Assembly: GCF_005047355.1 (NCBI RefSeq)
Contig: NZ_SUMC01000018.1
Coordinates: forward strand, 1-64,000
Source of the DNA: Actinacidiphila oryziradicis
GTDB taxonomy: Bacteria; Actinomycetota; Actinomycetes; Streptomycetales; Streptomycetaceae
Length of the DNA stretch: 64,000 nt
Direction: 5' to 3'
Part shown: positions 16,499-63,303 of the stretch, one piece after another
Position numbering within the stretch: the first letter of the stretch is position 1
Layout: each line of letters starts with the position of its first letter
Position numbers and translations under genes: made by a program
Notes under the pieces: model-generated
What the model saw: the letters and a program-made list of their open reading frames with translations, nothing else
Told to the model about the DNA's origin: nothing
Databases searched by the model: none

Positions 16499-16513
16499 CT
16501 GACGATACGTCAG
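16499..16513. promoter_or_regulatory. Operator A, CTGACGATACGTCAG
   Basis: Perfect palindrome (6-bp arms, ATA centre), 29 bases before the EthD-like gene. It belongs to the 15-bp motif family repeated across the window. Confidence 0.75.
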
Positions 16514-16615
16514 GGAACCACTCGCGCGGAATACGCGGGCGACGCACGAGGCGACGCGGATGCGGGGGCACGCGGCTGTCCAAGGCGCTGGCTTTCCGTG
16601 GTGCGCGTCCCTACT

Positions 16616-16630
16616 CTGACGGACAGTCAG
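16616..16630. promoter_or_regulatory. Operator B, CTGACGGACAGTCAG
   Basis: Arms CTGAC/GTCAG match with one change from the consensus. It lies 22 bases before the SDR start and shares the divergent promoter region with operator A. Confidence 0.6.
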
Positions 16631-16651
16631 ACTTATCAGGGGGTGTCGATC

Positions 16652-17446
16652 GTGCCGATCATGCTGCTGCGGGACAGGACAGTCGTGGTGTCGGGCGTCG
16701 GCCCAGGGCTCGGACAGCGGATCGGGGCCGCGGTCGTACGGGACGGCGGAAACGCCGTACTCGGCGCCCGGACGGAGGCGAACCTCGCCAAGGCGGCGCA
16801 GGAGATCGACCCGCAGGGCGCGCACACCGCCTGGCGGGTGACCGATATCGCCGACGAGGCGCAGTGCGCCGCGCTCGCCGCGCTGGCGGTCGAGCGGTTC
16901 GGCGGGATCGACGCCGTTGTGCATGTCGCCGCCTGGGACTCGTACTTCGGCGGGGTGGAGGACGCGGACTTCACATCCTGGGCGGGCGTGATCGACGTCA
17001 ACCTGCTCGGTACGCTGCGGATGACCAAAGCCTGCCTGCCCGCCCTCAAGGAGCGCGGCGGCGGCTCGGTGGTCTTCATCGGGACGCAATCCGCCGTCGC
17101 GGCGCCGACCCAGGTGCGGCAGGCGGCGTACGCGGCGTCGAAGGGCGCACTGACCTCCGCGATGTACTCGCTCGCCCGCGAGGTGGGACCTTACCGGGTC
17201 CGCGTCAACACGGTGCTGCCCGGCTGGATGTACGGGCCGCCTGTGCAGGCGTACGTACAGTTCACCGCGCACACCGAGGGCGTGCCCGAGGACGAGGTGC
17301 TGAGCCGGCTCACCGAGCGGATGGCGCTGCCCGAGCTGGCGACGGACGGCGATGTGGCGGAGGCCGTGGTCTTCCTCGCCTCCGACCGGGCGCGCGCGAT
17401 CACCGGGCAGTCGCTGCTGGTGAACGCGGGCGAGCTGATGCGTTAG
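16652..17446 (+). CDS. Short-chain dehydrogenase/reductase (SDR)
   Basis: 264 residues. The Rossmann loop is SGVGPGLG near the N-terminus, and the catalytic set is S in IGTQSAVAAP with Y and K in AYAASKGA. The usual NNAG is HVAAW, a variation seen in divergent SDRs. LPGWMYGPPVQAY follows the active site. NAD(P)-dependent oxidation of a hydroxyl group is expected. GTG 16652 is preferred, with AGGGGG 8 bases upstream; ATG 16661 is possible. The stop codon TAG is formed across the left junction of a MITE-like element, so the insertion may have set the C-terminus. Confidence 0.85.
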   Translation: MPIMLLRDRTVVVSGVGPGLGQRIGAAVVRDGGNAVLGARTEANLAKAAQEIDPQGAHTAWRVTDIADEAQCAALAALAVERFGGIDAVVHVAAWDSYFGGVEDADFTSWAGVIDVNLLGTLRMTKACLPALKERGGGSVVFIGTQSAVAAPTQVRQAAYAASKGALTSAMYSLAREVGPYRVRVNTVLPGWMYGPPVQAYVQFTAHTEGVPEDEVLSRLTERMALPELATDGDVAEAVVFLASDRARAITGQSLLVNAGELMR

Positions 17447-30235: not shown

Positions 30236-31363
30236 TTATGCCCCCGCTGCCGCGCGGAAGCGGGTGGTGCGGTGGACGGGGTCGGTGTCGATCTCGGGGA
30301 TGACGTGCTCGCCGATGAGGCGGATCGTGCGGAGCGTGTCCTCGTAGGGGACACCGACCGGCAGCCCGAAGGAGAGCTGGTCGGCACCGGCCGCCTCCCA
30401 GCGCTTGCACTGGGCGAGCACTTCGTCCGGGTCGCCGCAGATCATGAGTTCCTCGGCGATGAGGAACTCGATGATCTCCTCGTTGTAGTCGGGGAGCAGT
30501 TCGGGCCACTGCGGGATCCCCTCGGGACGAGGGAACGTGTCGTGGTAGCGGAAGAGCAGCGACTGCAGGTAGTTGAGGTTGGAGCTCGCCGCGATCTGCC
30601 GTGCCTTCTTGCCCGTCTCGGCGCAGATCGCGGTCGAGGTCACCATCACGTTGTCGTTGACGTAGTCACCGATCGGCTCGGCGTCCCGTACCGCTGTCTT
30701 GTACGAGTCGACGACCCATTCCATGTCGGAGACCTTCTGCACGCTGAAGCCGAGCACCCCGAGCCCCTTCTTGGCCGCCATGGCGTACGAGGACGGCGAC
30801 CCGGCGGCGTACCACATGGCCGGGTGGGACTTCCCGTACGGCTTCGGGAGGATCTTGCGCGGCGGCAGGGACCAGTGCTTGCCCTGGAAGCCTTCGTAGG
30901 TGTCCTGGAGCCACATCTTGGGGAATTCGGCGATGGTCTCTTCCCAGATCTCCTTGGTGTCGTTCATGTCGCTGATGCCGGGCAGGAAGCCGAGGATCTC
31001 GTGGCTGCCGGCGCCGCGCCCGGTGCCGAATTCGAAGCGGCCGGAGGAGAGGTGGTCGAGCATGGCGACGCGCTCGGCGACCTTGACGGGGTGGTTGACC
31101 TGCGGGAGCGGGTTGAAGATCCCGGAGCCGAGGTGGATGCGTTCGGTGGCGTGGGTCAGGTAGCCGAGGTAGACGTCGTTGGCGGAGAGGTGCGAGTACT
31201 CCTCCAGGAAGTGGTGCTCGCTGGCCCAGGCGTACTTGAAGCCCGACCGGTCGGCCTGGATGACGTACTCCGTCTCCTCCATCAACGCGTGGTGCTCGGC
31301 CTGCGGATCGGTCCTGGCCCGGCTGGCGGGCACGTATCCCTGTACGAAGATCCCGAATTCCAC
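30236..31363 (-). CDS. Luciferase-like (LLM) flavin-dependent oxidoreductase
   Basis: 375 residues of the bacterial-luciferase TIM barrel: MEFGIFVQGYVP, YAWASEHHFLEEYSHLSAND, IHLGSGIFNPLPQVNHPVKV and FEFGTGRGAGSHE. The cofactor may be FMNH2 or F420; sequence alone does not decide. It probably oxygenates or dehydrogenates a lipophilic carbonyl compound. Operator C lies 42 bases upstream, so it has its own regulated promoter, separate from the SDR/LLM pair transcribed toward it. The C-terminus (EIDTDPVHRTTRFRAA) is normal for the family. Confidence 0.9.
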   Translation of the reverse strand: MEFGIFVQGYVPASRARTDPQAEHHALMEETEYVIQADRSGFKYAWASEHHFLEEYSHLSANDVYLGYLTHATERIHLGSGIFNPLPQVNHPVKVAERVAMLDHLSSGRFEFGTGRGAGSHEILGFLPGISDMNDTKEIWEETIAEFPKMWLQDTYEGFQGKHWSLPPRKILPKPYGKSHPAMWYAAGSPSSYAMAAKKGLGVLGFSVQKVSDMEWVVDSYKTAVRDAEPIGDYVNDNVMVTSTAICAETGKKARQIAASSNLNYLQSLLFRYHDTFPRPEGIPQWPELLPDYNEEIIEFLIAEELMICGDPDEVLAQCKRWEAAGADQLSFGLPVGVPYEDTLRTIRLIGEHVIPEIDTDPVHRTTRFRAAAGA

Positions 31364-31404: not shown

Positions 31405-31419
31405 CTGACGCATCGTCAG
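31405..31419. promoter_or_regulatory. Operator C, CTGACGCATCGTCAG
   Basis: Perfect 15-bp palindrome that extends to TATCTGACG/CGTCAGATA. It lies in the 66-bp gap before the LLM gene. Confidence 0.78.
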
Positions 31420-46901: not shown

Positions 46902-47315
46902 ATGCTGCGACCAGTGGCCGACCCCGACGGCACCCCCTTCTGGGAGTACGCCCGCGCCGGCGAACTCCGCGTCCAGGCCTGCACTCCCTGCGGACGGCTC
47001 CGCTTCCCGCCCCGCCCCTGCTGCCCGCACTGCCACTCCTTCGACAGCCACTGGCGGCACCTGAGCGGCCACGGCCGCGTCTGGTCCTACGTCATCGCCC
47101 ATCCCCCGCTCCTCCCCGAGTACGCCGACCAGGCCCCGTACAACGTGGTCATCGTGGAACTGGCCGAAGACCCCGCCATCCGCCTCGTCGGCAACCTCGT
47201 CGCCCGGCCCGACGCACGGCTCGACTCCGTCGACCCCGCCCGGATCCATATCGGTGCCCGCGTACGGGCCGTCTTCCACGACGGGCTGCCCCGCTGGCTG
47301 CTGGAGCGGCCATGA
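46902..47315 (+). CDS. DUF35 OB-fold zinc-ribbon protein, aldolase partner
   Basis: 137 residues. The zinc ribbon is C-x2-C then C-x2-C (CTPCGRLRFPPRPCCPHCHS), followed by an OB fold (GRVWSYVIAHPPLLPEYADQ, then PYNVVIVELAEDP). Proteins of this type bind Ltp2-like aldolases and thiolases and complete their active site or channel the CoA substrate. One base separates it from the Ltp2-like gene and its end overlaps the next start by 4 bases, so the three are co-translated. Confidence 0.9.
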   Translation: MLRPVADPDGTPFWEYARAGELRVQACTPCGRLRFPPRPCCPHCHSFDSHWRHLSGHGRVWSYVIAHPPLLPEYADQAPYNVVIVELAEDPAIRLVGNLVARPDARLDSVDPARIHIGARVRAVFHDGLPRWLLERP

Positions 47316-48398: not shown

Positions 48399-50858
48399 TC
48401 AAGCGCGCCGTGCAGCGGCGCCCGTTCCCTTCACGGCGTCCAACGCGTAGACACACCGGTCCTTGCTGCTCGCGTACACCACACCCCCCATGACCACCGG
48501 GGACCCGGTGATCTCACCGCCCGTCTCCAGCTTCCACCGCAATTGGCCGCCCCCGGCGTCCACCGTGTACAGACAGTGGTCCTTGGACCCGAAATGCACG
48601 CGCCCATCGGCCGTGACCGGCGCCCCGACGATCTCTCCCTGAGCCGCGAAGCGCCACTTCGGCGTGCCTGAGACCGCGTCAAGGGTGTACAGGGCAGACC
48701 CCGCCCCGAGCATGACGGAGCCGCCCGCGACGAGCACAGGCTCGACGGACTGCCGTTGCTCGGTGGCGACCCGCCACCGGTCCCTGCCATCGACCGGATC
48801 GAGGGCATACACGGTCCCGAGGTAGTCGGCGACGTAGATTCCGCCGCCGGTCACGCCAGGCCCGGGCACGTAGGCGGGCGGCCCGAACATGACCGCGGGC
48901 GCGTCGAAACGCCAGCGCTCACCGCCGGTGCGGGCGTCAAGCGCGAGGACACGGTTGCCGGCCGTCACATATACGGCGCCGTCCGCGACGACCGGGCGTG
49001 TCGGCATGCTGCCGGGCGCACCGGTCTCGCTGGTGGGGTACGACCAGTGCTCGGCGCCGGTAGTGGCGTCGAGGGCGTGGAGCCGGCCGCCGCCGTGGAA
49101 GTAGACGACACCGTCGACTACGCCGGGGCCGGACTCGGGGGTCTCGAAGTCGGTCTGCGCGCCGCCGCGCTCCCAGAGCAGCCGGCCGCCGGCGGCGTCC
49201 CAGACCTGGACACCGCCGCCGCGCGTGCCGGTGACGACGGCGCCGGCGTCCGCCCGCAGGGAGTAGATCCAGCCGTCGACCGCGGTACGCCATCGCTCGG
49301 TGCCGTCGGAGGCGTCGAGGGCGTAGACGCTGGGCCCGTCCGAGGCGTGGATGCGGCCGCTGTCGACGGTCATGGTCCAGGCGACGTCACGGGTCTTGAA
49401 CTGCCGCCGGCCGGTGGCGACGTCGAGCGCGTGTACCTCGAAGGAGGTGACGTAGAGCCGCCCGCCGGAGACAACGGGGGTGCCCCACACATCGTTCGAC
49501 ATGCGGAACCGCCAGGGCCGCCACTCCCCGCCGGGGGGCTGTGCCTGCCCGGGCAAGGCCTTGGGGGGCGGGTTGCCGACGGCATGAGCACCACCGCCAC
49601 CACCGCCGGCCCCACCCTGGTCACCGGGCGGACCGCCACCGGCTCCGCCGCCCCGGTGGGTCCAGCCGAGGTCCGGTGCGGGCCCCGCCGCCTTCGCCGT
49701 GTGGTCCTTGCGGTCGGCGACCCGCAGGCCGGGCCCGATCGGCGCGGAGCCGGCCAGTTGCACCGGCCCGGCTTCGGCGGCGTTGCCGGCGTGCCTGCCG
49801 CCACCGCCCTCGGGGACCCGCGGCGAGGCCGGAGCCGCGGCCGAAGCAACCGGCGGGGCGGCCGGCAGGGCAGCCGGAACCGGCGGCGGCAGCTGTGGCA
49901 TGGGCGGCACCACTGCGCCCTTGGCCGCCGCGGCGGCGCCCGCACCCGCCGCGGCCACCGCCGACCGGCCGCTGCGGCGCTCCTCTATCATCGCCACCGC
50001 CCCGGCCGGCAGCCACGCGGAGGCCGTACCGGTGTCGTCACCGGCCGAGGAGAAGAGGTGCGGCGCGAGCTGCGCCTGGAGCTCGGCGGGGCTCGGCCGC
50101 TGGTCGGCCTCCATCCGCATGCAGGACTCGATGAGCGGCCGCAGCTCGCCCGGCAGCCCGGCCAGGTCCGGGCCTTCCCGGAGCAGCATGAAGACGGTCT
50201 CGACCGGGTTGGCGCCGTGGAACGGCGCGTGCCCGGTCGCCGCGAAGACCAGCGTCGACCCGAGTGAGAAGACATCACTCGCGCCAGTGACGCTCCGCGA
50301 GTCCCGCGCCTGCTCGGGCGACATATATGCGGGCGTTCCGACCGCCACGTTCGTCATTGTGAGCCGAGTGTTGGAGACCCCGGACGCGATACCGAAGTCG
50401 ATCACGCGGGGCCCGTCCTCGACCACCAGTACGTTGGACGGCTTGAGGTCACGGTGCACGAGCCCGGCCCCGTGGATGGACTGCAGGGCCTCCGCGACCC
50501 CGGCCGCGAGCCAGCGCACCGCCTGGGCGGGCATCGGCCCGGAATCGTTGACGATCTCCTCCAGCGAGGGCGCCGGCACATACGCCGTGGCGAGCCACGG
50601 CACCGCCGCGCGCGGGTCGGCGTCCACGACGGCAGCCGTATAGAAGCCGCTGACCGCGCGGGCCGCCTCCACCTCGCGGGTGAAGCGGACCCGGAAAAGC
50701 TGGTCCTCCGCCAGCTCGGCGCGCACCGTCTTGATCGCCACTCGCCGGCCGGACGCCGAGCGGGCGAGATAGACCAGCCCCATGCCGCCCGAGCCGAGCC
50801 GCGCGAGCACCTCGAACGGGCCGATCCGTCTTGGATCGTGCTGCGTCAGCTGCTGCAC
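48399..50858 (-). CDS. afsK: Ser/Thr protein kinase AfsK with PQQ-type propeller
   Basis: 819 residues. The kinase domain lies at about 12-275: glycine loop [10 protein letters not shown]43 (VAIKTV), HRDLKPSN (D137), DFG at 154-156 and [10 protein letters not shown] Pro/Ala/Gly linker (about 300-480) joins a C-terminal seven-to-eight-blade PQQ-like propeller with repeated [23 protein letters not shown] units. AfsK autophosphorylates and phosphorylates AfsR; it also affects apical growth through DivIVA in S. coelicolor. GTG 50858 is used: it begins [18 protein letters not shown], close to the known N-terminus, with GGAGG upstream. The linker is Gly-rich and unusually repetitive. Confidence 0.93.
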
Positions 50859-51008: not shown

Positions 51009-51812
51009 TCAAGCGGGTTTCTCACCCCTGGTGGTGCTTGTGTCGATGACCGCGAAGTTCGCCCCTTGATTGTCGACCACGGTCGCCAGGCGGCCGAACG
51101 GCGAGTCCACCGGGCCCATGGTCACCCGGCCCTCCAGCCGGCTGACGGTCTCTGCGGCCCGGTCGGCATCCTCGACGCCGAAGTAGACCAGGAAGTGGGC
51201 CGGCAGCTCTTCGGGGAAGCCCTCCCCCATCTCGAAGCGCCCGGCGACCGCGCTCCGCGGTCCGGGCGGCGAGCCCGGCGGCGAGTAGATCTTGTAGTCC
51301 ATGCCGGGGGTGCCCTCGAGCTGCTTGCCGTTGAAGCCGAAGACGCTCTCGTAGAAGGCGTCGACGGCTTTCGCGTCCCGCGTGTAGACCTCGGTCCAGC
51401 TGTACGAGCCGGGTGCGCCGGTCACCCCGAAACCGGTGTGCGTGCCCGCCTGCCAGACGCCGAAGACGGCGCCGCCCGGATCGGCGGCCATCATCATCGT
51501 CCCGTACGGCCCGACGGCCATCGGGTCCATGATCACCTGGCCGCCGGCGTCGCGGACCTTGGCCGCCGTCGCGGCGGCGTCGGACGAGGCGAAGTAAATG
51601 TTCCAGACGGTCGGCATCCGGCCGTCGGGCTTGGGCGCGAGCGCCGCGACGTTCTTTCCGTCCCGGCGGAACACCTGGGTGTAGTAGCCGTAATCCTTCT
51701 CGCCGTCCTGGAAGGTCCAGCCGAACAATTCTCCGTAGAACCGCTTGCCGGCCTCCAGGTCGGGGAGCATGGCGTCCGCCCAACAGGGCACACCATCGGC
51801 GTATCTCGCCAT
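51009..51812 (-). CDS. Two-domain VOC (glyoxalase-like) protein
   Basis: 267 residues made of two vicinal-oxygen-chelate halves (about 8-120 and 135-255): MLPDLEAGKRFYGELFGWTF and, in the second half, VYTRDAKAVDAFYESVFGFN. Metal-binding residues are only partly kept, so it may bind a ligand rather than catalyse. Its start is about 150 bases from the divergent TetR gene. A different inverted repeat, GTGTC-x6-GACAC (51846-51861), sits in its own leader. Confidence 0.85.
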   Translation of the reverse strand: MARYADGVPCWADAMLPDLEAGKRFYGELFGWTFQDGEKDYGYYTQVFRRDGKNVAALAPKPDGRMPTVWNIYFASSDAAATAAKVRDAGGQVIMDPMAVGPYGTMMMAADPGGAVFGVWQAGTHTGFGVTGAPGSYSWTEVYTRDAKAVDAFYESVFGFNGKQLEGTPGMDYKIYSPPGSPPGPRSAVAGRFEMGEGFPEELPAHFLVYFGVEDADRAAETVSRLEGRVTMGPVDSPFGRLATVVDNQGANFAVIDTSTTRGEKPA

Positions 51813-51960: not shown

Positions 51961-51975
51961 CTGACGGCATGACAG
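51961..51975. promoter_or_regulatory. Weak operator match at the TetR start, CTGACGGCATGACAG
   Basis: The left arm is perfect and the right has two changes. The ATG sits at the same position inside the site as in operator F2. It is a candidate autoregulatory site. Confidence 0.42.
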
Positions 51976-52616
51976 GACAAGTTCGCACCGTCGACGGCCG
52001 TGTGGCAGGGCGTCGAGGACAGGCGACGCGGCAGAAGCTGCTCGACTGCCTCGGCGAAATGCTGAGCACGTCCCCGTACCGGGACGTCAAGGTCATCGAC
52101 GTAGCCCGGATGGCAGGTACCTCCCCCGCAACGTTCTACCAGTACTTCCCGGACGTCGAGGGCGCAGTCCTCGAACTCGCCGAGGAAATGGCCACGGAAG
52201 GCACCGGTCTGGCCACTCTCGTAGCCGGTCGCTCGTGGGTCGGCAAGTCCGGCGCTCAAGCGGCCGAGGAGCTGGTGGACGGCTTCCTCTCCTTCTGGCG
52301 CAAGCACGACGCGATTCTGCGCGTCGTCGACCTCGGTGCGGCGGAAGGGGACAAGCGGTTCTACAAGATCCGCATGAAGGTCCTCAACCCCGTCACCAAT
52401 TCCCTTACCGACTCCATCAAGGAACTCCAGGCCAAGGGCCGCGTCGACAAGGAGGTCAGCCCTGCCGCCATCGCGGGCTCGCTGGTCGCCATGCTCGCCG
52501 CCGTGGCCGCCCACCAAAAGGGCTTCACCAGCTGGGGCGTCAAACAGGCCGAGCTCAAACCCAATCTCGCCCTGCTCGTGCATCTCGGCGTCACCGGCAA
52601 AAAGCCGCCCCGATAA
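51969..52616 (+). CDS. TetR-family regulator
   Basis: 215 residues. The HTH lies at about 20-66: TRQKLLDCLGEMLSTSPYRD, VKVIDVARMAGTSPATFYQY and FPDVEGAVLELAEEMA. The ligand domain (about 75-205) contains FLSFWRKHDAILRVVDLGAA and MLAAVAAHQKGF. The ATG lies inside a weak copy of the 15-bp palindrome. As the only TetR gene in the window, between regulated catabolic operons, it is my candidate regulator of that motif, with an acyl-CoA-type ligand as the likely inducer. This is inference from position and operator shape. It is followed by 260 bases without a recognisable gene. Confidence 0.9.
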   Translation: MTGQVRTVDGRVAGRRGQATRQKLLDCLGEMLSTSPYRDVKVIDVARMAGTSPATFYQYFPDVEGAVLELAEEMATEGTGLATLVAGRSWVGKSGAQAAEELVDGFLSFWRKHDAILRVVDLGAAEGDKRFYKIRMKVLNPVTNSLTDSIKELQAKGRVDKEVSPAAIAGSLVAMLAAVAAHQKGFTSWGVKQAELKPNLALLVHLGVTGKKPPR

Positions 52617-52878: not shown

Positions 52879-53364
52879 CTAGCGCGGCGTGAGCCGGAAG
52901 AGCCGGATCTCCCGGGCAACCCGGGCCGCGTAGGCAGCGTACGGCGGCCAGAAGCGCAGTAGCGCCTCCCAGGCGGCCTCGCGCTCGGCCCCGCGCAGGA
53001 GCTCGGCGCGCACAGGGATGTCGCGGCCTTTCCAGCTGATCTCAGCGTCCGGATGCTTCAGCAGGTTCGCTGTCCAGGCAGGATGGTCCGGCTGCCCGAA
53101 GTTGCTGCCGACCAGCACAAACGTGCCGTCGGCCACGGGCATGCACGCCAAGGGCGTACGGCGTGGCAGCCCGCTCTTCGCGCCTGTGGCGGTCAGCACG
53201 ACGCCTGGCAGCAGCTGCGCGCTGATCAGCACCTTTCCGCGAGTGAGGCGGTGCACGAACACGTCCATCGCGGGTAGGACGTGCGGCGCCACCTTGGCGA
53301 AGCCGCGCGTCGAGGACACCCTCTGCACAAGCCGCACGAGTCCTGCCGGCTTCCTCATGCTCAT
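52879..53364 (-). CDS. Deazaflavin(F420)-dependent nitroreductase-family protein
   Basis: 161 residues of the FDOR-A (Ddn-like) split-barrel: VLTATGAKSGLPRRTPLACM, GTFVLVGSNFGQPDHPAWTA and NLLKHPDAEISWKGRDIPVR. Ddn relatives reduce activated C=C bonds, including quinones and enones, with F420H2. The start overlaps the acyl-CoA dehydrogenase stop by 4 bases, so it is the second gene of an operon controlled by operator G. Confidence 0.9.
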   Translation of the reverse strand: MSMRKPAGLVRLVQRVSSTRGFAKVAPHVLPAMDVFVHRLTRGKVLISAQLLPGVVLTATGAKSGLPRRTPLACMPVADGTFVLVGSNFGQPDHPAWTANLLKHPDAEISWKGRDIPVRAELLRGAEREAAWEALLRFWPPYAAYAARVAREIRLFRLTPR

Positions 53365-54659
53365 GCTGCCACCAACCCCAACCCCAGATTCTCGAAGAGC
53401 CGCGCCTGCCCGGCAGCCCGGGCCCGCAGGGCATACCCGGGGCCGAACAGCAGTTCGTCCGAAACCGCCCTCTTGAAGTACAGGTGGGCATGGTGCTCCC
53501 AGGTGAAACCGACTCCGCCGTGCAGCTGGATCGCCTCGCCCGCGACAGCACGCAGTGCCGCCAGCGCCTCCGCCAGCGCGAGCGGGCCACTGACGGCTCT
53601 GCCGTCGTCCGTGTCGCACCCGGCGTAGTACGCCGTCGAACGCGCGGCCTGTAGCCGTACGTAAAGATCGGCCAAACGGTGCTTGACCGCCTGGAAGGAG
53701 CCGACAGGCCGCCCGAACTGCTCCCTGGCCCGGACATATGCCAGGGTCGTGGCAAGCGCCTGGTCCGCCGCGCCGACCGCTTCGGCGGCGATCGCAGCCG
53801 CCGCGAGAGCACCCGTAAGGGCGAGGGCGGGCCCCGGATCGGGACCGTCGGCCGCATCCGCCGCCACGTCCGCCGCCGCGTCCGCCGCCTCGACGCCGCC
53901 GAGGGGCTCCGCGGGCACGTCCCGGAGTTGGATCCGCGCCTGGGCCCGGGTCTCGTCGAGGGCGGTCAGCCTGGCGCGTACGAGGCCGGGCGCGCCGCCG
54001 TCGACCAGGAAGAGCCGGATCCGGCTGCGGGCGTAGCCGCCGGTGTGCGCGGCGACCAGCAGCAGCCCGGCGGTATGGCCGCCGAGGACCTGCCCGGCCT
54101 CGCCGTAGAGCCGCCAGGGGGCGCCTGGGGCATGCCTCGCCTGGATGCCGCCCGCACGGCCGTCTCCGGCCCAGTCGCCGCTGACCCGGTCGCCTCCGGC
54201 CCAGTCGCCGCTGACCCGGTCGCCACCGGCCCCGTCGCCGCTCGGAGCGGTGAGGCCGAGGGCGGCACCCAGGGGGCAGGGCACCGCGAGGGCAGCGGTG
54301 ACCGCGCCGGAGGCGATACGCGGGAGCAGGGCGCGCCGCTGGGCGTCGGTGCCGAGCGCTTCGATCAGGGGGGCGGCCAGCACGGCCGTGGGAAACAGCG
54401 GGGAGGGCAACAGGGCTCGCCCGGTTTCCTCGCAGGCCAGCACCAGCTCCGTGGGCCCGAAGCCGGCGCCGCCGTACTCCGCCGGAAGGGCCATCCCGGG
54501 CAGGCCGAGCGGCCCGGCGAGCGAGCGCCACAGGGCCTCGTCGTAGCCGGCGGCGGTGCGCACCGCCGCCTTGACCTCGTCGGGGCCGCAGCGTTTGCGG
54601 AGCAGTTCGCGCAGAGTGCGCCGGATCTCTTGCTGCTCATCGGTGAACGCGGCATCCAT
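53361..54659 (-). CDS. Acyl-CoA dehydrogenase with low-complexity insertions
   Basis: 432 residues of the FAD-dependent acyl-CoA dehydrogenase fold: FTDEQQEIRRTLRELLRKR, PAEYGGAGFGPTELVLACEE, REQFGRPVGSFQAVKHRLAD and LHGGVGFTWEHHAHLYFKRA. It resembles the FadE proteins that work as heterotetramers in steroid side-chain degradation, though no second subunit gene is next to it. Near residues 140-170 lies GGDRVSGDWA in near-tandem copies, encoded by a 30-bp DNA repeat (54170-54240), and a second Ala/Asp run (ADAAADVAADAADG) lies near 260; both are absent from typical members. ATG 54659 has GGAGGAG upstream. Confidence 0.86.
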   Translation of the reverse strand: MDAAFTDEQQEIRRTLRELLRKRCGPDEVKAAVRTAAGYDEALWRSLAGPLGLPGMALPAEYGGAGFGPTELVLACEETGRALLPSPLFPTAVLAAPLIEALGTDAQRRALLPRIASGAVTAALAVPCPLGAALGLTAPSGDGAGGDRVSGDWAGGDRVSGDWAGDGRAGGIQARHAPGAPWRLYGEAGQVLGGHTAGLLLVAAHTGGYARSRIRLFLVDGGAPGLVRARLTALDETRAQARIQLRDVPAEPLGGVEAADAAADVAADAADGPDPGPALALTGALAAAAIAAEAVGAADQALATTLAYVRAREQFGRPVGSFQAVKHRLADLYVRLQAARSTAYYAGCDTDDGRAVSGPLALAEALAALRAVAGEAIQLHGGVGFTWEHHAHLYFKRAVSDELLFGPGYALRARAAGQARLFENLGLGLVAA

Positions 54660-54684: not shown

Positions 54685-54699
54685 CTGATGTACCGTCAG
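54685..54699. promoter_or_regulatory. Operator G, CTGATGTACCGTCAG
   Basis: One arm change. It lies between the divergent acyl-CoA dehydrogenase and thiolase-like genes, ending 4 bases before the latter's ATG. Confidence 0.68.
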
Positions 54700-54703: not shown

Positions 54704-55906
54704 ATGTCCCAGGGTAGCCGCAGTGGCCGCGAACGCAGCCGTACGGGAAGCCGCAAAGTCGCGGTCGTAGGAGTCGCGCTGTCGGACTGCGGGCGGGTCG
54801 ACGACGCGACGCCGTACGCACTGCACGCGCAGGCCGCCCGCCGGGTGCTCGCGGACTGCGGACTGCCGCGCCACGCCATCGACGGCTTCGCCTCCGCGGG
54901 ACTCGGCACCCTCGCGCCCGCTGAGGTCGCCGACTATCTGGGCCTCCGTCCCACCTGGGTCGACTCGACGTCCGTCGGTGGCGCCACCTGGGAGGTCATG
55001 GCGGCGCACGCCGCCGACGCGATAGCCGCGGGCCATGCCCGCGCCGTCCTGCTCGTCTACGGATCCACCGCCCGCGCCGACCTCAAGGCGGGCCGCCGCA
55101 CCGCGAACCTCTCCTTCGGCACGCGCGGGCCGCTGCAATTCGAGACGCCTTACGGCCACACGCTGATCGCCAAGTACGCCATGGCCGCCCGGCGCCATAT
55201 GCACCAGTACGGCACGACACTCCCGCAGCTCGCGGAGATCGCCGTCCAGGCACGCGCGAACGCGGCCCGCAACCCCGAAGCCATGTATCGGGCCCCGGTC
55301 ACCGTCGACGACGTACTGTCCGGCCCGGTGATCGCCGACCCGTTCACCAAACTGCACTGCTGCATCCGCTCCGACGGCGGCTGCGCGGTGCTGCTGGCCG
55401 CCGAGGACTACGTGGCCGACACCGCGAAGGCGCCGGTGTGGGTCCTCGGTTCCGGCAGCGCCGTCTCGCACACCGCCATGTCGGAGTGGGAGGACTTCAC
55501 GGTCTCCCCGGCCGCCGTTTCGGGCCGGGCCGCCTTCGCCCGCGCGGGCGTCTCCCCCGCCGACATCGATTTCGCCGAGATATATGACGCGTTCACATAC
55601 ATGACCCTGGTGACCCTTGAGGATCTCGGCTTCTGCCCCAAGGGCGAGGGCGGCGCCTTCGTGGAGAAGGGCCGCCTCACTATCGACGGCGAGCTGCCTG
55701 TCAACACCGACGGCGGCGGGCTCTCCGCCTGCCATCCTGGCATGCGCGGGCTGTTCCTGCTGGTCGAGGCGGTCCGCCAGCTGCGCGGCGAGGCGGGTGA
55801 GCGGCAGGTGCGGCGGGCCGGCGGCGGGCTCCCGGAGCTCGCGGTCGCTTCCGGCACGGGGGGTTGGTTCTGCTCTTCCGGCACTCTGGTGCTGGGCCGG
55901 GGCTGA
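54704..55906 (+). CDS. Second thiolase-like lipid-transfer protein
   Basis: 400 residues of the SCP-x/Ltp group, distinct from the Ltp2-like protein: VAVVGVALSDCGRVDDATPY, WVDSTSVGGATWEVMAAHAA, KLHCCIRSDGGCAVLLAAED, EIYDAFTYMTLVTLEDLGFC and PVNTDGGGLSACHPG. Thiolytic or retro-aldol cleavage of a CoA thioester is expected; the HCC stretch and YDAFT are conserved in steroid-associated Ltp3/Ltp4-like proteins. The ATG lies 4 bases after operator G with no room for a ribosome-binding site, which suggests a leaderless message. Confidence 0.85.
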   Translation: MSQGSRSGRERSRTGSRKVAVVGVALSDCGRVDDATPYALHAQAARRVLADCGLPRHAIDGFASAGLGTLAPAEVADYLGLRPTWVDSTSVGGATWEVMAAHAADAIAAGHARAVLLVYGSTARADLKAGRRTANLSFGTRGPLQFETPYGHTLIAKYAMAARRHMHQYGTTLPQLAEIAVQARANAARNPEAMYRAPVTVDDVLSGPVIADPFTKLHCCIRSDGGCAVLLAAEDYVADTAKAPVWVLGSGSAVSHTAMSEWEDFTVSPAAVSGRAAFARAGVSPADIDFAEIYDAFTYMTLVTLEDLGFCPKGEGGAFVEKGRLTIDGELPVNTDGGGLSACHPGMRGLFLLVEAVRQLRGEAGERQVRRAGGGLPELAVASGTGGWFCSSGTLVLGRG

Positions 55907-57801: not shown

Positions 57802-58212
57802 TCAAACAGTCGGCCGGAAGACCCGGAAGACGGGGACGGCCGTGCCGTCGGCTCCTCCGGGGCGGAAGTGAACGTACAGGTCCATGCCGACGCGCAGCGC
57901 GAACCCGGGGCATCCGACAACCTCGGTCATCATGCGGGGCCCCTCCGCGAGGTCGACGACGGCGGCGGTGTACGGCAAGCGCCCGGAGAAGGGCGAAAGA
58001 TCGTTCATGTGTACGACTGACCACGTGTAGAGCGAGGCGCGGCCACTCGCCCGCTCCCAGTGGACGTCCTCGCTCCAGCAGCGCGGGCAGAATTCGCGCG
58101 GGTAGTGGTGCGCGGCTCCGCAGCCGGCGGCGTGGCAGCGGCGGATGAGAAGCCGGCCCTGGTTCGCGGCGTCCCAGTAGGGGCGGGTGAAGGCGTCGGC
58201 GTCGCGGGTCAC
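57802..58212 (-). CDS. Second DUF35 OB-fold zinc-ribbon protein
   Basis: 136 residues. The zinc ribbon uses C-x4-C and C-x2-C (CHAAGCGAAHHYPREFCPRC), and the OB fold follows (ASLYTWSVVHMNDLSPFSGR, then PYTAAVVDLAEGPRM). It probably pairs with the second thiolase-like protein (54704-55906), whose gene has no adjacent DUF35. It overlaps the DoxX stop by 4 bases and so is expressed from operator H. Confidence 0.88.
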   Translation of the reverse strand: MTRDADAFTRPYWDAANQGRLLIRRCHAAGCGAAHHYPREFCPRCWSEDVHWERASGRASLYTWSVVHMNDLSPFSGRLPYTAAVVDLAEGPRMMTEVVGCPGFALRVGMDLYVHFRPGGADGTAVPVFRVFRPTV

Positions 58213-58661
58213 AGGAAGAGCTCCCAGGCTCTGTCGAGGGACCAGGTCTGCCAGCTCATGGCGAGGAGGGCGACGAGCGAGATGAGCGCCATCATCGCGT
58301 TCTGCCCCTGCTCGGCCCAGTCGTGGATCATCAGCACGAGGTAGAGAAGGTTGAGTGCGAGGCCGCCGGCCAGGGCGATGGGGGTGAGCAGACCGCCCGT
58401 CAGCCCGAGGCCGATGGCCAGTTCGGCGTAGACCACGACATACGCCATCACCCTGGGGCGCGGTGCGACCACCGCCCCGAAGCCGCCCTGGACGAAGCTC
58501 CAGCGGTGCTTCGCAGCGACATCAGCCGCCCACGCGATCCCGGTGCCGCGCCGGAGCCAGCCCTTCTTGTCCTTGTGCCGCCAGCTCTCCAGCCACCACA
58601 GGCCGAGGCCGATGCGCAGCACGGCAAGCCATTCGGCTCCGGTCAGCCAGATCGTCCGCAT
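58209..58661 (-). CDS. DoxX-family membrane protein
   Basis: 150 residues, four helices. The family pattern is LRIGLGLWWLESWRHK at the start, then VVVYAELAIGLGLTGGLLTP and ALNLLYLVLMIHDWAEQGQN. DoxX-like proteins link to quinone or thiol redox in membranes; the role here is unknown. It is the first gene of an operon with the DUF35 gene. Operator H ends 5 bases before the ATG. Confidence 0.88.
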   Translation of the reverse strand: MRTIWLTGAEWLAVLRIGLGLWWLESWRHKDKKGWLRRGTGIAWAADVAAKHRWSFVQGGFGAVVAPRPRVMAYVVVYAELAIGLGLTGGLLTPIALAGGLALNLLYLVLMIHDWAEQGQNAMMALISLVALLAMSWQTWSLDRAWELFL

Positions 58662-58665
58662 TCAT

Positions 58666-58680
58666 CTGACGATACGTCAG
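58666..58680. promoter_or_regulatory. Operator H, CTGACGATACGTCAG
   Basis: Perfect palindrome, identical to operator A. It immediately precedes DoxX and lies 158 bases before the flavin monooxygenase on the other strand. Confidence 0.78.
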
Positions 58681-58837
58681 TCAATCGGATGCGGAAAGCC
58701 CGGTGCGAAAAAGCCCGGTGCGGAAAAGCCCGGCACGGAAAGCCCTCAGCGCAGACGGCAGCCGCCGCTGGCTACGCTCACCTCCAGCACCACGCCCGCC
58801 CCTCACCCTTCACCTTCGAAACGCCCCGGGAGTCTCC

Positions 58838-59983
58838 ATGACCGGCACCAACACCGCATCCCCTGACGCGATCGTCATCGGCGCCGGGCCCGGCGGGCTC
58901 GCCACCGCGGCCGCACTCCAGGGACTCGGCGTACGCACGCTCGTCCTGGAGCGGGCCGAGGCCGTCGCCGCGTCATGGCGGAAGCACTACGACCGCTTGC
59001 ACCTGCACACCACGAGACGGTTGTCCGGGCTGCCCGGATTCGCGATCCCGCGCGCCTACGGCCGCTGGGTCGGGCGGGACGACGTGATCCGCTACCTGGA
59101 GCAGTACACGGCCTTCCACGGCCTGGACATAGCCACCGGCATCGAGGCCTCCCGGATCGAGCGGGCGGAGGACGGGACCTGGCTCCTCCCGGCCACCGGC
59201 GGCCGCCGGCTGACCGCCCGCGCCGTGGTTGTGGCCACCGGCAACAACCACACCCCGCACGTGCCGGAATGGCCCGGCCGGGACACGTACAGCAGGGAGC
59301 TGCTGCACGCGGCCCGTTACCGCAACGGGCAGCCCTACGAGGGCCGGGACGTGCTGGTCGTCGGCGTCGGGAACACGGGAGCCGAGATCGCGGTCGATCT
59401 CGTCGAGGCGGGTGCGGCCCGGGTGCGGCTGGCGGTGCGGACAGCGCCGCACATCATGCGGCGGGCCACGGCCGGGTGGCCGGCCCAGGCGACCGGGATC
59501 CTGGTGCGGCGGCTGCCGACGCGACTGGTGGACCGGGTGGCACCGTACGTCGAGAAGATCAGTGTGCCGGACCTTTCGGAGTACGGGCTGCCCCGCCCGG
59601 ACAGCGGCCTCTACTCGCGGGTACGGGACGGGGCCATCCCGGTCCAGGACGTCGGAATCATCGCGGCGGTGCAGGCACGGAAGGTCGAGCCCGTCCCGGC
59701 CGTCGAAGGCTTCGACGGCGACAAGGTGCTGCTCGCGGACGGTTCGAGCATCGGGCCGGATGTCGTCATCGCCGCCACCGGCTACCGCCGGGGGCTGGAC
59801 GAACTGGTGGGCCACCTCGGCGTCCTCGACGGGCACGGCCGGCCCACCGTGCATGGCGCGCGCACGCCGCCCGGCGCGGCAAATCTCTACTTCACCGGCT
59901 TCACCAATCCCATCAGTGGCATGTTCCGCGAAATGGCCATCGACGCCCAGAAGATCGCCCGCGCCGTCGCCAGGGGCAAGTGA
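58838..59983 (+). CDS. Flavin-containing (Baeyer-Villiger-like) monooxygenase
   Basis: 381 residues. The FAD site is VIGAGPGGLATAAALQGLG near the start, and a second Rossmann motif VVGVGNTGAEIAVDL binds NADPH. VVVATGNNHTPHVPEWPGRD is the FMO-type linker and VIAATGYRRGLD the late ATG motif. An N- or C-oxygenation or Baeyer-Villiger step on a ketone is likely; a flavin-only oxidase cannot be excluded. ATG 58838 is chosen over a 45-codon longer frame that runs through an AAGCCCGG(T/C)GCGGAA tandem repeat (58690-58745). Confidence 0.87.
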   Translation: MTGTNTASPDAIVIGAGPGGLATAAALQGLGVRTLVLERAEAVAASWRKHYDRLHLHTTRRLSGLPGFAIPRAYGRWVGRDDVIRYLEQYTAFHGLDIATGIEASRIERAEDGTWLLPATGGRRLTARAVVVATGNNHTPHVPEWPGRDTYSRELLHAARYRNGQPYEGRDVLVVGVGNTGAEIAVDLVEAGAARVRLAVRTAPHIMRRATAGWPAQATGILVRRLPTRLVDRVAPYVEKISVPDLSEYGLPRPDSGLYSRVRDGAIPVQDVGIIAAVQARKVEPVPAVEGFDGDKVLLADGSSIGPDVVIAATGYRRGLDELVGHLGVLDGHGRPTVHGARTPPGAANLYFTGFTNPISGMFREMAIDAQKIARAVARGK

Positions 59984-60084: not shown

Positions 60085-60099
60085 CTGACTACCAGTCAG
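60085..60099. promoter_or_regulatory. Operator I1, CTGACTACCAGTCAG
   Basis: A perfect palindrome in itself (CTGACT/AGTCAG) with a one-base change in each arm from the consensus. Confidence 0.55.
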
Positions 60100-60108: not shown

Positions 60109-60123
60109 CTGACAGTACGTCAG
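60109..60123. promoter_or_regulatory. Operator I2, CTGACAGTACGTCAG
   Basis: One arm change. It is spaced 24 bases from I1, similar to the F1-F2 pair, and precedes the ATP-grasp synthetase. Confidence 0.68.
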
Positions 60124-60158: not shown

Positions 60159-62336
60159 ATGCTTGGATCGACCTACAGCACCCGCGATACCGGCCCCGGG
60201 CGGCCCACGCGGCACCCGGACGACCTGGATGTGAGCGGCCGCCCGTTGCACTCCGCCGTCCCGGACCTGGACCGGCTCTTCCGGCCCCGGACCGTCGCCG
60301 TCGTCGGTGCTTCCGACACCGAGGGCCGGCCGAACACCGGCATCACCCGGCAGCTGCTGGCCTGGTCCGAGCGGGTAGGCGCCCGGCTCTTCCCGGTCAA
60401 CCCAGGCCGGAAAGCCGTCTTCGGCCTGCCGTGCCACGCTTCGGTCAGCGACCTCCCGGAGGCCGTCGACCTGGCGGTGCTGCTCGTCGCCGATCCCCTT
60501 CCCGTCATCGAACAGCTCGGCGGGACCGGGACCCGCTTCGCCGTGGTCTTCGCAGCCGGGTTCGCCGAAACCGGCGAGGAGGGCGCGGCGGCCCAGGACC
60601 GGCTTGCCCAGGCCGTCGCCCGCGCCGGGCTGCGACTGCTCGGCCCGAACACCAACCTCAACGCCTTTGAGAGGTTCCGGGACGACCTGACCGGCCCGGC
60701 CATCGCCCTCATCACCCAGTCCGGCCACCAGGGCCGCCCCCTCTACACCCTCCAGGAACTCGGCATCCGGCTCAGCCACTGGGCCCCCACCGGCAATGAG
60801 GCCGATCTGGAGATCGCGGACTTCATCTCCTATTTCGCGGAGCGGCAGGAGATCGGCGCCATCGCGGTCTACGCCGAAGGCCTCAAGGACGGCCGCTCCT
60901 TCGCCCTCGCCGCCGACCGCGCCGCGCGCAACAAGGTGCCCGTCGTCATGGTCAAGGTCGGCCGCACCGAGACCGGGGCTCGGACCGCCGCCTCCCACAC
61001 CGGCAAACTGACCGGCTCCGACGCCGTCGTCGACGCCGCCCTCAGGCAGTACGGCGTGATCAGGGTCGACGGGCTCGACGAGCTTCAGGACACTGCCACG
61101 CTGCTGGCGCGGGCCCGGCCGCCGGTGAGCGACGGCGTGGTCGTCTACTCCATCTCCGGGGGCACGGGTGCCCACTTCGCCGACCTCGCTTCGGCGGCCG
61201 GGCTTCCGCTGCCGGCACTGAGCGACGCCAAGCAGGCCGAACTGCACCAGTGGATACCCTCCTACCTGAATGTCGCCAACCCCATCGACAACGGCGGCCA
61301 CCCGGTCGGCGACTGGCGCGGCCGCAAGATCATCGACGCGGTCCTCGCCGACCCGGACGTCGGTGTCCTCATCTGCCCGATCACCGGACCGTTTCCACCC
61401 ATGAGCGACAAACTCGCGCAGGACCTGGCCGATGCGGCGGAGGCGACCGACAAGCTGGTGTGCGTGGTGTGGGGCTCTCCCCTCGGCACCGAGGACGCCT
61501 ACCGCACCACTCTCCTCGGCTCCTCCCGCATCGCCACCTTCCGCACCTTCGGCAACTGCATCACCGCCGTCAAGGCCTACCTCGACCACCACCGCTTCAC
61601 CTCCTCCTACCGCTCGCCCTTCGACGACGCCCCCCGGACCCCCTCCTCCTCCGCCCGCAAAGCACACGGCCTGCTCAGCCCCGGCCGCCGGCTCAGCGAA
61701 CACGCGGCCAAACAACTCCTCCGGGCCTACGGGATCCGCGTCCCGCGCGAGCACCTCGTCACCAGCGCGGCCGGATCCGTCCGCGCCGCCGCACTCGTCG
61801 GCTACCCCGTCGTCATGAAGGCCTCCGGCCCGCACCTCACCCACAAGACAGAACTCGGCCTTGTCAAGACCGGCCTCACCTCGGCCAGCCAGGTCCGTGA
61901 CGCCTATCGCGAACTCGCCGACATCGCCCGCTACGAAGCCATCGACCTCGACGGCATCCTCGTCTGCCAAATGGTCGGACGTGGCGTCGAGATGGTCGTC
62001 GGCATCTCCCCCGACTCCCTCTTCGGCCCGACCGTCACCGCCGGACTCGGCGGCACACTCGTCGAAGTCCTCAGCGACACCACCGTCCGTGTCCCGCCCT
62101 TCAGCCCCGGCACCGCCCGCGCCATGCTCCGCGACTTGCGCGGCCGGCGGCTCCTGGACGGCGTCCGCGGCGCGCCCCCGTCCGATATCGACGCCCTCGT
62201 CGACACCATCCTCCGTGTCCAGCGCATGGCCATGGAACTCGGCGACAGCCTCGCCGAACTCGACATCAACCCCCTGATGGTGCTCCCGCACGGCCAGGGC
62301 GCGGTCGCGCTCGACGCCCTGGCCATATGCCGGTGA
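60159..62336 (+). CDS. ADP-forming-type acyl-CoA synthetase (CoA-binding + ATP-grasp)
   Basis: 725 residues. An N-terminal CoA-binding domain (about 30-160, FRPRTVAVVGASDTEGRPNT) is followed by two succinyl-CoA-ligase-like domains (ALITQSGHQGRPLYTL, KVGRTETGARTAASHTGKLT) and a C-terminal ATP-grasp_5 domain (GYPVVMKASGPHLTHKTELG, ELDINPLMVL). It activates an organic acid with CoA. ATG 60159 has AGGAG 12 bases before it; TTG 60129, six bases after operator I2, would add ten residues and remains possible. Confidence 0.87.
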   Translation: MLGSTYSTRDTGPGRPTRHPDDLDVSGRPLHSAVPDLDRLFRPRTVAVVGASDTEGRPNTGITRQLLAWSERVGARLFPVNPGRKAVFGLPCHASVSDLPEAVDLAVLLVADPLPVIEQLGGTGTRFAVVFAAGFAETGEEGAAAQDRLAQAVARAGLRLLGPNTNLNAFERFRDDLTGPAIALITQSGHQGRPLYTLQELGIRLSHWAPTGNEADLEIADFISYFAERQEIGAIAVYAEGLKDGRSFALAADRAARNKVPVVMVKVGRTETGARTAASHTGKLTGSDAVVDAALRQYGVIRVDGLDELQDTATLLARARPPVSDGVVVYSISGGTGAHFADLASAAGLPLPALSDAKQAELHQWIPSYLNVANPIDNGGHPVGDWRGRKIIDAVLADPDVGVLICPITGPFPPMSDKLAQDLADAAEATDKLVCVVWGSPLGTEDAYRTTLLGSSRIATFRTFGNCITAVKAYLDHHRFTSSYRSPFDDAPRTPSSSARKAHGLLSPGRRLSEHAAKQLLRAYGIRVPREHLVTSAAGSVRAAALVGYPVVMKASGPHLTHKTELGLVKTGLTSASQVRDAYRELADIARYEAIDLDGILVCQMVGRGVEMVVGISPDSLFGPTVTAGLGGTLVEVLSDTTVRVPPFSPGTARAMLRDLRGRRLLDGVRGAPPSDIDALVDTILRVQRMAMELGDSLAELDINPLMVLPHGQGAVALDALAICR

Positions 62337-62412
62337 CCCTCGCGGCACGGGCGCGGTCGGGTCGCACCGAGCCCGGCATGCCTTGTGTCGTACGACAAGG
62401 AGCCACATCCCC

Positions 62413-63234
62413 ATGACATCTCCCTCCGGGAAACTCTCCGTGACGACAGTTGTACTCCAAGCCACTGACAACGCCGTCTCGTGGATCACGCTGAACCGCC
62501 CCGAGGCCATGAACGCCCTCCTCCCCGAGCAGCGCGAACACATCATCGGCCTGCTGGAGGCCGCCTCCGCCGACCCGGACATCCGGGCTGTCGTCCTCAC
62601 CGCCACGGGGCGGGCGTTCTGCGCGGGCGCGGATCTGCGCGGCGGCTCGGCCGGGACCGGCGGCGAGCGCGTCCCGGGCGATGTGGCCCGTACGATCCAG
62701 CGGGGGGCGCAGCGTCTCGTCGCGGCGGTGCTGGACTGCGAGAAGCCGGTGATCGCCGCTGTCAATGGCACCGCCGCCGGGCTCGGCGCGCATCTCGCCT
62801 TCGCCTGCGACCTGGTACTCGCCGCCGAGAGCGCGAGGTTCATCGAGGTGTTCGTCCGCCGCGGCCTTGTCCCGGACGGCGGCGGTGCGTATCTGCTGCC
62901 CCGGCTGATCGGCGCGCAGCGCGCGAAGGAGCTGATGTTCTTCGGCGACGATCTTCCGGCGGCCGACGCCGAACGCCTCGGCCTGGTCAACCGCGTCGTC
63001 CCCGCCGACGATCTGAACAAGACCGCCCGCGCCTGGGCCGAGCGCCTCGCCTCGGGCCCGACTCGAGCGCTGGCACTCACCAAGCAGCTGGTCAACTCCT
63101 CGTCCGACGCAGACCGGGCGACCGCGTTCGCCGCCGAGGCGGCCGCCCAGGAGCTCAACATGACCACGGCCGACGCCCTGGAAGGCGTCCAGGCGTTCGC
63201 CGAGCGGCGTGCGCCACACTTCCGCGGCCGCTGA
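62413..63234 (+). CDS. Enoyl-CoA hydratase/isomerase family protein
   Basis: 273 residues, crotonase fold: WITLNRPEAMNALLPEQREH, VVLTATGRAFCAGADLRGGS, NGTAAGLGAHLAFACDLVLA and VFVRRGLVPDGGGAYLLPRL. The PDGG form (Asp instead of the second catalytic Glu) suggests an isomerase or a hydratase of branched or cyclic enoyl-CoA. AAGGAG precedes ATG 62413. It follows the synthetase by 76 bases and could be in the same transcript. Confidence 0.88.
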   Translation: MTSPSGKLSVTTVVLQATDNAVSWITLNRPEAMNALLPEQREHIIGLLEAASADPDIRAVVLTATGRAFCAGADLRGGSAGTGGERVPGDVARTIQRGAQRLVAAVLDCEKPVIAAVNGTAAGLGAHLAFACDLVLAAESARFIEVFVRRGLVPDGGGAYLLPRLIGAQRAKELMFFGDDLPAADAERLGLVNRVVPADDLNKTARAWAERLASGPTRALALTKQLVNSSSDADRATAFAAEAAAQELNMTTADALEGVQAFAERRAPHFRGR

Positions 63235-63288
63235 CCGCCGCCTTCCTTGCCGGCGGGCGGTACGGCCGGTGCTCGGCGGTCTTCCGAT

Positions 63289-63303
63289 CTGACGCATCGT
63301 CAG
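63289..63303. promoter_or_regulatory. Operator J, CTGACGCATCGTCAG
   Basis: Perfect palindrome, identical to operator C, ending 5 bases before the ATG of the flavin reductase. Confidence 0.78.

Follow-up and report, generated by a model that had tools for sequence, protein, structure and literature searches.

A 64 kb window at the start of contig C90 of Actinacidiphila oryziradicis, whose genome comprises 11.53 Mb in 389 contigs, encodes a TetR-family repressor and carries thirteen copies of a palindrome at promoters. The TetR gene (51969-52616, plus strand) is the proposed master regulator of these promoters. Its product matches TetR_C_38 (PF19352) with 246.5 bits against a cut-off of 23.9 and is the single match to this profile in the whole genome. 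The TetR_N profile gives 23.5 bits, just under its cut-off of 24; taken with the TetR_C_38 match and an EthR helix-turn-helix (HTH) match, it identifies the N-terminal HTH and C-terminal domain of a TetR-family member. Twelve of the palindromes had been reported in an initial annotation of this DNA, and all twelve coordinates are exact. Relative to the consensus CTGACGNNNCGTCAG, five of them are perfect, six have one mismatch, and one (60085) has two. The thirteenth, at 51961-51975, had been overlooked and was recovered with a matrix from other species. It spans the TetR start codon and gives the repressor a palindromic candidate operator in its own promoter, as autoregulation would require. 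Throughout, C, L, G, and f followed by a number designate contigs, loci, genomes, and families.

The first two sites, 16499-16513 (perfect; matrix score 23.4) and 16616-16630 (one mismatch to the 12-base consensus, exact core; 21.7), lie between a gene without a Pfam family (15631-16494, minus strand) and a short-chain dehydrogenase/reductase (SDR) gene (16643-17446, plus; PRK07890, 337.7 bits, cut-off 258), the second being upstream of the SDR gene. A perfect site at 31405-31419 (31.2) is upstream of a luciferase-like monooxygenase (LLM) gene (30236-31363, minus). The site at 33132-33146 (exact core; 25.5) is upstream of a gene for an F420-type LLM oxidoreductase (32195-33115, minus; TIGR03619, 240 bits, cut-off 166.9), whose operon probably includes an SDR gene (31430-32185, minus). 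The perfect site at 39036-39050 (27.4) precedes an Amidohydro_2 hydrolase gene (37776-39023, minus). Two sites, 45717-45731 (exact core; 29.5) and 45744-45758 (24.0), share the divergent promoter of a FadD3-family acyl-CoA ligase gene (44086-45693, minus; PRK07656, 795 bits, cut-off 657) and a thiolase or lipid-transfer protein gene (45752-46900, plus; PRK07855, 578.6 bits, cut-off 469), and the second overlaps the thiolase ATG. Genes for a ChsH2-type OB/zinc-ribbon (DUF35) protein (46902-47315, plus) and an enoyl-CoA hydratase (47312-48079, plus) probably complete the thiolase operon. Downstream of the TetR site (score 16.8), the site at 54685-54699 (one core mismatch; 26.7) occupies the divergent promoter of an acyl-CoA dehydrogenase gene (53361-54659, minus) and a thiolase gene (54704-55906, plus). 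The perfect site at 58666-58680 (25.5) lies between a gene for a 150-residue protein without a Pfam family (58209-58661, minus), whose operon presumably includes a ChsH2-type OB/zinc-ribbon gene (57802-58212, minus), and a divergent gene for a FAD-dependent monooxygenase-like protein (FMO; 58703-59983, plus). Two sites, 60085-60099 (exact core; 23.5) and 60109-60123 (28.0), are upstream of an ATP-grasp (ADP-forming) acyl-CoA ligase gene (60159-62336, plus), with an enoyl-CoA hydratase gene (62413-63234, plus) as a probable operon member. The last site, 63289-63303 (perfect; 27.7), precedes an HsaB-like flavin reductase gene (63309-63917, plus; 183.7 bits, short of the 230 required for HsaB). 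Distances between sites and start codons are about as given earlier, within some 45 bases, except that the site at 60085 ends 60 bp ahead of the ATG at 60159. The proposal that every controlled gene is a CoA, redox, or lipid gene holds for most of the window; it does not extend to 15631-16494 and 58209-58661, which lack Pfam families, or to the Amidohydro_2 gene, and strong sites elsewhere in the genome also front WxL-like genes.

The scoring matrix is symmetrical and was derived from promoter cores of 80 named Streptomyces and Actinacidiphila loci around TetR orthologs (120 distinct 21-mers), with no window sequence included. Applied to the window, it produces exactly 13 matches with a score of at least 7, the lowest being 16.8. 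All of them are at promoters, and none lies inside a gene, unrelated or otherwise. Exact copies of the core, CTGAC-N5-GTCAG, number 11 in the window versus a mean of 0.095 in 200 dinucleotide shuffles (maximum 2), and CTGACGNNNCGTCAG with at most one mismatch likewise occurs 11 times versus a mean of 0.4 in 60 shuffles (maximum 2). With up to two mismatches, 18 matches are found, and since the shuffle mean is already 6.95, two-mismatch matches by themselves are weak evidence. The earlier statement that such a sequence is not expected even once in 64 kb is thus valid for perfect matches and fails for these looser ones. The other two-mismatch matches, at 10100, 13296, 15150, 43421, and 58389, do not reach a matrix score of 7 and were rejected. 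Among 5-mer inverted repeats with spacers of 0-11 in the window, only a G+C-rich CGCCG-N4 class (12 copies) outnumbers CTGAC-N5-GTCAG. Across the 11.53 Mb genome, the exact core is present 50 times, of which 11 are inside this 64 kb, and the reversed pattern is present three times. A chance origin of the sites was rejected by the shuffles, the other-species consensus, and the matrix scan.

Promoters of other species provided 267 distinct oriented sites, with divergent sites counted once per direction, and the symmetrical operator deduced from them is A-N-CTGAC-(G/T)-NNN-C-GTCAG-N-T, with a length of 19 bp. The flanking A, two bases before one arm, is found in 72% of these sites, and the T, two bases after the other arm, in 78%. 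The site is symmetrical, as had been described, but its pattern of 12 fixed positions was not retained: the inner G/C falls outside a 10-base core, and the operator is longer. The 10-base core was adopted because the inner G/C varies, and the 12-base consensus anchored on CTGACG was dropped. C at position 6 or G at position 10, just inside the arms, is seen in a single one of the 173 promoter cores and in none of the 11 window cores. At two promoters, operators are often paired across the 80 loci, with 26 pairs 24 bp apart and 15 pairs 27 bp apart. The window contains pairs of these spacings at 60085/60109 and 45717/45744, and such pairing could permit cooperative control.

The TetR gene is present in 60 of 60 Streptomycetaceae genomes searched, and residues T51, S52, A54, T55, F56, Y57, Q58, Y59, and F60 are invariant among 26 aligned TetR sequences down to 43% identity. 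The gene overlaps its own site, CTGACGnCATGACAG, in which the ATG is the start codon. This sequence is found in 133 of 134 Streptomycetaceae loci, some genomes being represented twice. In 77 of 79 matches of the named loci it is preceded by GGTAAG, which creates a TAAGCT hexamer six bases before the ATG. The TetR promoter thus appears to resemble a leaderless sigma-70-type promoter, and with the hexamer in this position, both the -10 box and the transcription start would fall within the site. Part of the conservation of the TetR site in Streptomycetaceae could stem from promoter and coding constraints. The operator can be separated from these constraints because its position relative to the ATG shifts in other families.

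Outside the named set, 15 of 21 TetR loci carry a core with at most one mismatch at the TetR gene, at shifting positions. They comprise L194 and L195 (f1); L197, L199, and L203 (f3); L242 (f14); L238 and L239 (f15); L240, L241, L243, and L244 (f16); and L245-L247 (f18). The core is upstream of the start in the f15 and f18 loci. In L240, an exact core is upstream of the likely ATG, and in L241-L244 a one-mismatch core is just inside the likely start. Core density follows the repressor within families. In f16, the density is 3.0-8.0 cores per Mb in the 5 genomes with TetR versus 0.3-1.7 in the 3 without. In f18, the values are 1.8-3.6 per Mb (6 genomes) versus 0-2.0 (17), genomes with PF19352 matches under 40 bits being counted as TetR-negative. 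Among 61 relatives, 14-154 cores were counted in the 51 genomes with a close ortholog versus 2-8 in the 10 without. This comparison of raw counts was set aside for the within-family densities because genome size differs. In a class-wide sample, the Streptomyces-group genome G273 has TetR and only 5 cores. The conservation of its own site and the density of cores support the TetR at 51969-52616 as the candidate binder, as the initial annotation had proposed.

Conservation at target promoters was assessed over the 80 loci with orthologs that align over 60% of the length at 45% identity or more and have 250 bp of promoter inside the locus, others being dropped. Of 177 exact cores in these loci, 173 are at promoters, largely of the same genes as the window targets. 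Counts are given below as promoters with an exact core, promoters with at most one mismatch, and orthologs. They are 46, 46, and 46 for the thiolase at 45752; 41, 41, and 42 for the FadD3-family ligase; 33, 33, and 33 for the gene at 58209; 24, 24, and 25 for the ATP-grasp ligase; and 20, 20, and 29 for 58838 (the 58666 site). The core is mostly kept with a mismatch at the acyl-CoA dehydrogenase at 53361 (4, 67, and 67), the thiolase at 54704 (6, 70, and 70), and TetR itself (0, 80, and 80). Lower values were obtained for the flavin reductase (1, 4, and 5) and 57802 (9, 10, and 46). No core was found at the downstream operon genes 46902 (0 of 51), 47312 (0 of 52), and 62413 (0 of 12), or at the neighbouring promoters of 52879 (0 of 59), 57206 (0 of 15), afsK (0 of 9), and afsR (0 of 7). 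The KbpA promoter (0, 14, and 66) has matches, probably because the TetR site adjoins it. In the loci of f1 relatives, f3, f14, f15, f16, and f18, 84 of 92 flanking-gene rows match genes of this genome in a BLAST comparison with the window and seven other loci. The matches are mostly to target genes, with 56-81% identity for FadD3 and thiolase in f3. In f18, a homolog of 15631-16494 and an LLM have in common a motif-bearing divergent promoter. The sites are therefore kept at the same promoters in related strains, and this comparative evidence supports the TetR-type palindrome and the dispersed promoter regulon first suggested from the window. The two outcomes that the initial annotation had named as contradicting it, an equal motif density within unrelated genes and a lack of conservation among related strains, were looked for and did not arise.

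Elsewhere in the genome, 39 exact cores are found, of which 13 precede a called gene by at most 250 bp and 11 lie neither there nor in genes. Strong sites, defined by a matrix score of at least 19, would extend the regulon. The site at C212:97567 fronts a cholesterol oxidase gene (846 bits to 1b4v). The site at C368:58871 fronts a run of ChsH2-like, MaoC-like, and thiolase genes. The MaoC-like assignment is weak (FAS1_DH_region 25.1 bits, cut-off 22; MaoC 25.2 bits, under 27), and the thiolase matches 6ok1 in its lipid-transfer chain, presumably Ltp2, with 542 bits. An acyl-CoA dehydrogenase closest to Tcur3481, assumed here to be a steroid enzyme, follows the site at C368:216032. At C190:85532, a PRK07798 ligase gene is divergent from an EchA19-like hydratase gene, which is followed by DUF35 and PRK07937 lipid-transfer genes, and C190:76318 fronts a nitronate-monooxygenase-family gene with a ligase. 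Further sites precede an MFE-2-type hydratase gene followed by alcohol dehydrogenase and PRK07792 SDR genes (C223:180737) and an aldehyde dehydrogenase/metallo-beta-lactamase-fold pair (C223:169737). On the window contig, C90:76263 lies in a divergent ligase/amidohydrolase pair, and a one-mismatch site at C90:71025 fronts an SDR/cyclase pair. The genome record lists 6.25% contamination, which means that a small number of distant sites may come from a different organism.

Two observations concern copies of a different character. Four exact cores of this genome (L021, L035, L045, and L046) have identical 8-bp flanks and are probably a small repeat element and not operators. In addition, G063, G082, G097, G110, and G123, genomes of the actinomycete family f15, contain 232-473 exact cores per 4.3-5.5 Mb genome. 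A 1.2 Mb sample of G063 (L304-L363) has 66 sites, 29 in genes and 37 outside. Of these 37, 18 are at convergent junctions, which make up 162 of 1124 junctions, and 7 of the 18 hold both stop codons. In 100 kb of G063, spacer 5 alone stands out, with 7 copies, and other spacers give 0 or 1. In f15, the core is in most cases not a promoter operator and is possibly a chromosome-organising or termination element.

Judged by sequence comparison, the putative operator is real, promoter-specific, 19 bp long, and kept at the same genes across Streptomycetaceae and related families. The thirteen window sites are likely, with a probability of about 0.77, to be operators of the TetR at 51969-52616, an autoregulated repressor of a dispersed CoA-catabolic regulon that most likely serves the catabolism of sterol or sterol-like side chains and alicyclic lipids. 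A sterol-type control system is the most likely kind because the regulon reaches cholesterol oxidase, the ChsH2/MaoC/Ltp2-like run, a steroid-type acyl-CoA dehydrogenase, and ligase/hydratase pairs. Mechanistically, a TetR dimer would bind operators that cover or adjoin the start site and the -10 box, and the bound repressor would block transcription of its own gene and of the dispersed CoA-catabolic operons. A catabolite, probably an acyl-CoA thioester, would then release TetR, by analogy with KstR2 and HIP-CoA as described in the consulted sections of PMC5380842.

Several observations weigh against this reading. Six of the 21 further TetR loci have no core with at most one mismatch at TetR: L201, L205, and L206 (f3, second genus), which have a two-mismatch version over the ATG, and L237 (f15), L248 (f6), and L249 (f21). 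The f6 genome G078 holds only 6 cores. Inside the genome itself, called genes contain 15 of the 39 exact cores found beyond the window as well as one strong site on C365, and three strong sites (the C13 pair and C368:10531) have no adjoining called gene. The sites of the C13 pair (L023:3257 and 3301) are 44 bp apart. Three strong sites on C79 (L020:6024, 6790, and 8238) precede consecutive non-CoA genes; two of these give weak WxL-type matches, the third matches no Pfam family, and a gene of the neocarzinostatin family comes next. Among the 177 cores of the named loci, one (L154:863) stands before a gene whose best match is an AfsR-like protein. Deletion of SCO4421, the counterpart by position in S. 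coelicolor, gave no detected phenotype according to the consulted part of PMC3878966. Three points touch the substrate. No site was found within 300 bp at 11 of 30 ChsH2-type and 13 of 21 cholesterol-oxidase promoters. KshA_C (PF19298) has no match in the genome, with a weak positive control (one genome, under the cut-off). Sterols need not be the common substrate because TetR (60 of 60 genomes) is wider than the ChsH2-type and cholesterol-oxidase genes.

The loci without an own site, together with the many fronted genes that lie far from the TetR gene, would also be expected if the operators were real but bound by another regulator, the TetR gene being merely one target. This is quite improbable, given that the TetR site recurs in the 15 further loci of six families at positions shifting relative to the ATG and in 80 of 80 named loci, that core density tracks TetR presence within two families, and that the window TetR is the sole PF19352 match in the genome and regulated operons adjoin its orthologs. 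It is very hard to credit that the palindrome is a conserved sequence of another kind, such as a repeat element, terminator, or replication signal, that is intergenic by chance. The abundant f15 copies, mostly off promoters in the one genome sampled, and the four cores with identical flanks here would suit such an element, but in the 80 loci 173 of 177 cores stand at promoters, for the most part of a recurring set of genes, and most control promoters have none.

Under the preferred reading of a TetR-controlled catabolic regulon, a sterol or a close analogue is somewhat favoured as the substrate, because side-chain enzymes and cholesterol oxidase carry operators in this genome. In loci of the family, 19 of 30 ChsH2-type promoters have an exact core, and 8 of 21 cholesterol-oxidase promoters have a core with at most one mismatch, against a background of 7 in 102 intragenic pieces. 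The scan covered 51 of 52 loci, a partial cholesterol-oxidase match (L300) being omitted, and 30 of 36 ChsH2-type matches had loci. The KstR-type box TnnAACnnGTTnnA was found at 7 of 21 cholesterol-oxidase promoters and at 0 of 30 ChsH2-type promoters of these family loci. The seven are L291, L292, L294, L296, L298, L299, and L301; in L301, a one-mismatch core at -300, which may be noise, accompanies the box. A KstR-type system therefore seems to operate alongside this one in some relatives, which suggests two sterol control systems inside Streptomycetaceae. The lack of a KshA_C match leaves the known 9,10-seco route without support.

It is possible, if somewhat doubtful, that the regulon is right and serves a substrate other than a sterol. 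Alicyclic acids, branched fatty acids, or cyclic isoprenoids of another type could be degraded instead, with the sterol-type enzymes as recruited relatives. Such a substrate would agree with the KshA_C result, with the scores of the IpdE2-like (185 bits against 450), HsaB-like (184 against 230), and EchA19-like (366.5 against 400) proteins below the curated cut-offs, and with the presence of pimeloyl- and cyclohexanecarboxylate-type relatives. TetR is also commoner than the ChsH2-type gene (33 of 61 family genomes) and a close cholesterol oxidase (19 of 61), and the available sections of PMC4810484 report 55 of 57 Streptomyces genomes as being without steroid pathways. This alternative has to account for the operators borne here by the cholesterol oxidase and the ChsH2/Ltp2-like aldolase parts. 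A bolder proposal, regarded as rather unlikely, is that the afsK-linked core TetR of Streptomycetaceae replaced both KstR and KstR2 and commands a KshA-free sterol or triterpenoid pathway in which the window LLMs, the HsaB-like flavin reductase, and the FMO do the ring oxygenation. If true, it would constitute a second actinobacterial route of steroid breakdown, which has been hidden so far because surveys sought homologs of known pathway genes.

The neighbours of the regulon include an AfsR-like (BTAD/NB-ARC) gene at 40102-43131, a small AfsS-like gene with AACAGCCACAACGAC repeats at 43312-43479, and, beside TetR, an AfsK-like kinase gene at 48399-50858 and KbpA at 51009-51812 (262.5 bits, cut-off 250); the names AfsR, AfsS, and AfsK are presumed for these genes. 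None of the four has its own operator by the matrix, the site at 51961 lying between KbpA and TetR. This neighbourhood suggests a link of lipid catabolism to antibiotic control. The TetR, which every one of the 60 searched Streptomycetaceae genomes contains, can now be given a proposed function, target list, and DNA box. It is also predicted that part of the family, represented by the 33 genomes with a ChsH2-type gene, carries an inducible CoA pathway of the sterol-side-chain type. A biosensor could be built on the pair of operator and TetR.

Catabolic regulons under TetR control are already known as a type of system. The top PDB sequence match of the window repressor is the mycobacterial TetR protein EthR, and it is confined to the HTH (E = 1.3e-5, residues 16-85); the ligand-binding domain of EthR is unmatched, the window protein having TetR_C_38. 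SAV3818, which is presumably the ortholog of the window TetR, was said in 2009 to stimulate antibiotic production. In S. coelicolor, SCO4421 is a TetR-family gene near afsK that is active in spore chains and less expressed in a whiA mutant (PMC3878966, sections consulted). The window TetR similarly lies beside KbpA and an AfsK-like kinase, and the two are taken as orthologs by position. A difference is that the consulted text gives no operator or regulon for the S. coelicolor gene (PMC3878966). The operator is not described in the available sections of PMC3878966, PMC3742746, PMC3897704, PMC12093943, PMC1995591, PMC4810484, PMC5380842, and PMC9782250, and the repressor, box, and target set were not found in the open-access literature searched, which is no proof of absence.

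KstR2 is a TetR responsive to HIP-CoA (PMC5380842, consulted in part). The window resembles that system, as far as the consulted text describes it, in that thioester catabolism and a FadD3-family ligase would be governed by a TetR, and differs in that its IpdE2- and HsaB-like proteins score under the family cut-offs. KstR2 targets include ipdABCF and fadE30-32; of this kind, an IpdE2-like protein and a nitronate-monooxygenase-family gene were seen. The KstR2 box, CAAGNNCTTG, occurs once in the window, at 49554 inside a gene, and was rejected as the operator.

KstR of mycobacteria and rhodococci is a TetR with the operator TnnAACnnGTTnnA, and SCO2319 (32%) has been named as a possible S. coelicolor ortholog (PMC1995591, consulted in part). 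This operator has no match in the window, in line with the earlier view that the palindrome is not the KstR box. In the window protein, 3mnl, taken here to be KstR, is matched with E = 0.69 over residues 14-63 (among the matches listed, the best 60 of 75), and orthology to KstR was not found. KstR controls side-chain genes of the ltp2, chsH, chsE, and fadD19/echA19 type, and operators precede such genes here, whose identity is based solely on family and PDB matches. The KstR set also extends to steroid ring-opening genes, among them kshA, for which PF19298 gave no match in this genome, with a weak positive control. The two systems share an autoregulated TetR and a palindrome in its own and many sterol or lipid catabolism promoters, as far as KstR is described in the consulted text, whereas the operator differs and the window repressor has no detectable relation to KstR beyond the HTH. 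Together with these data, the regulon is best read as a putative counterpart of KstR with a different repressor and a different operator.

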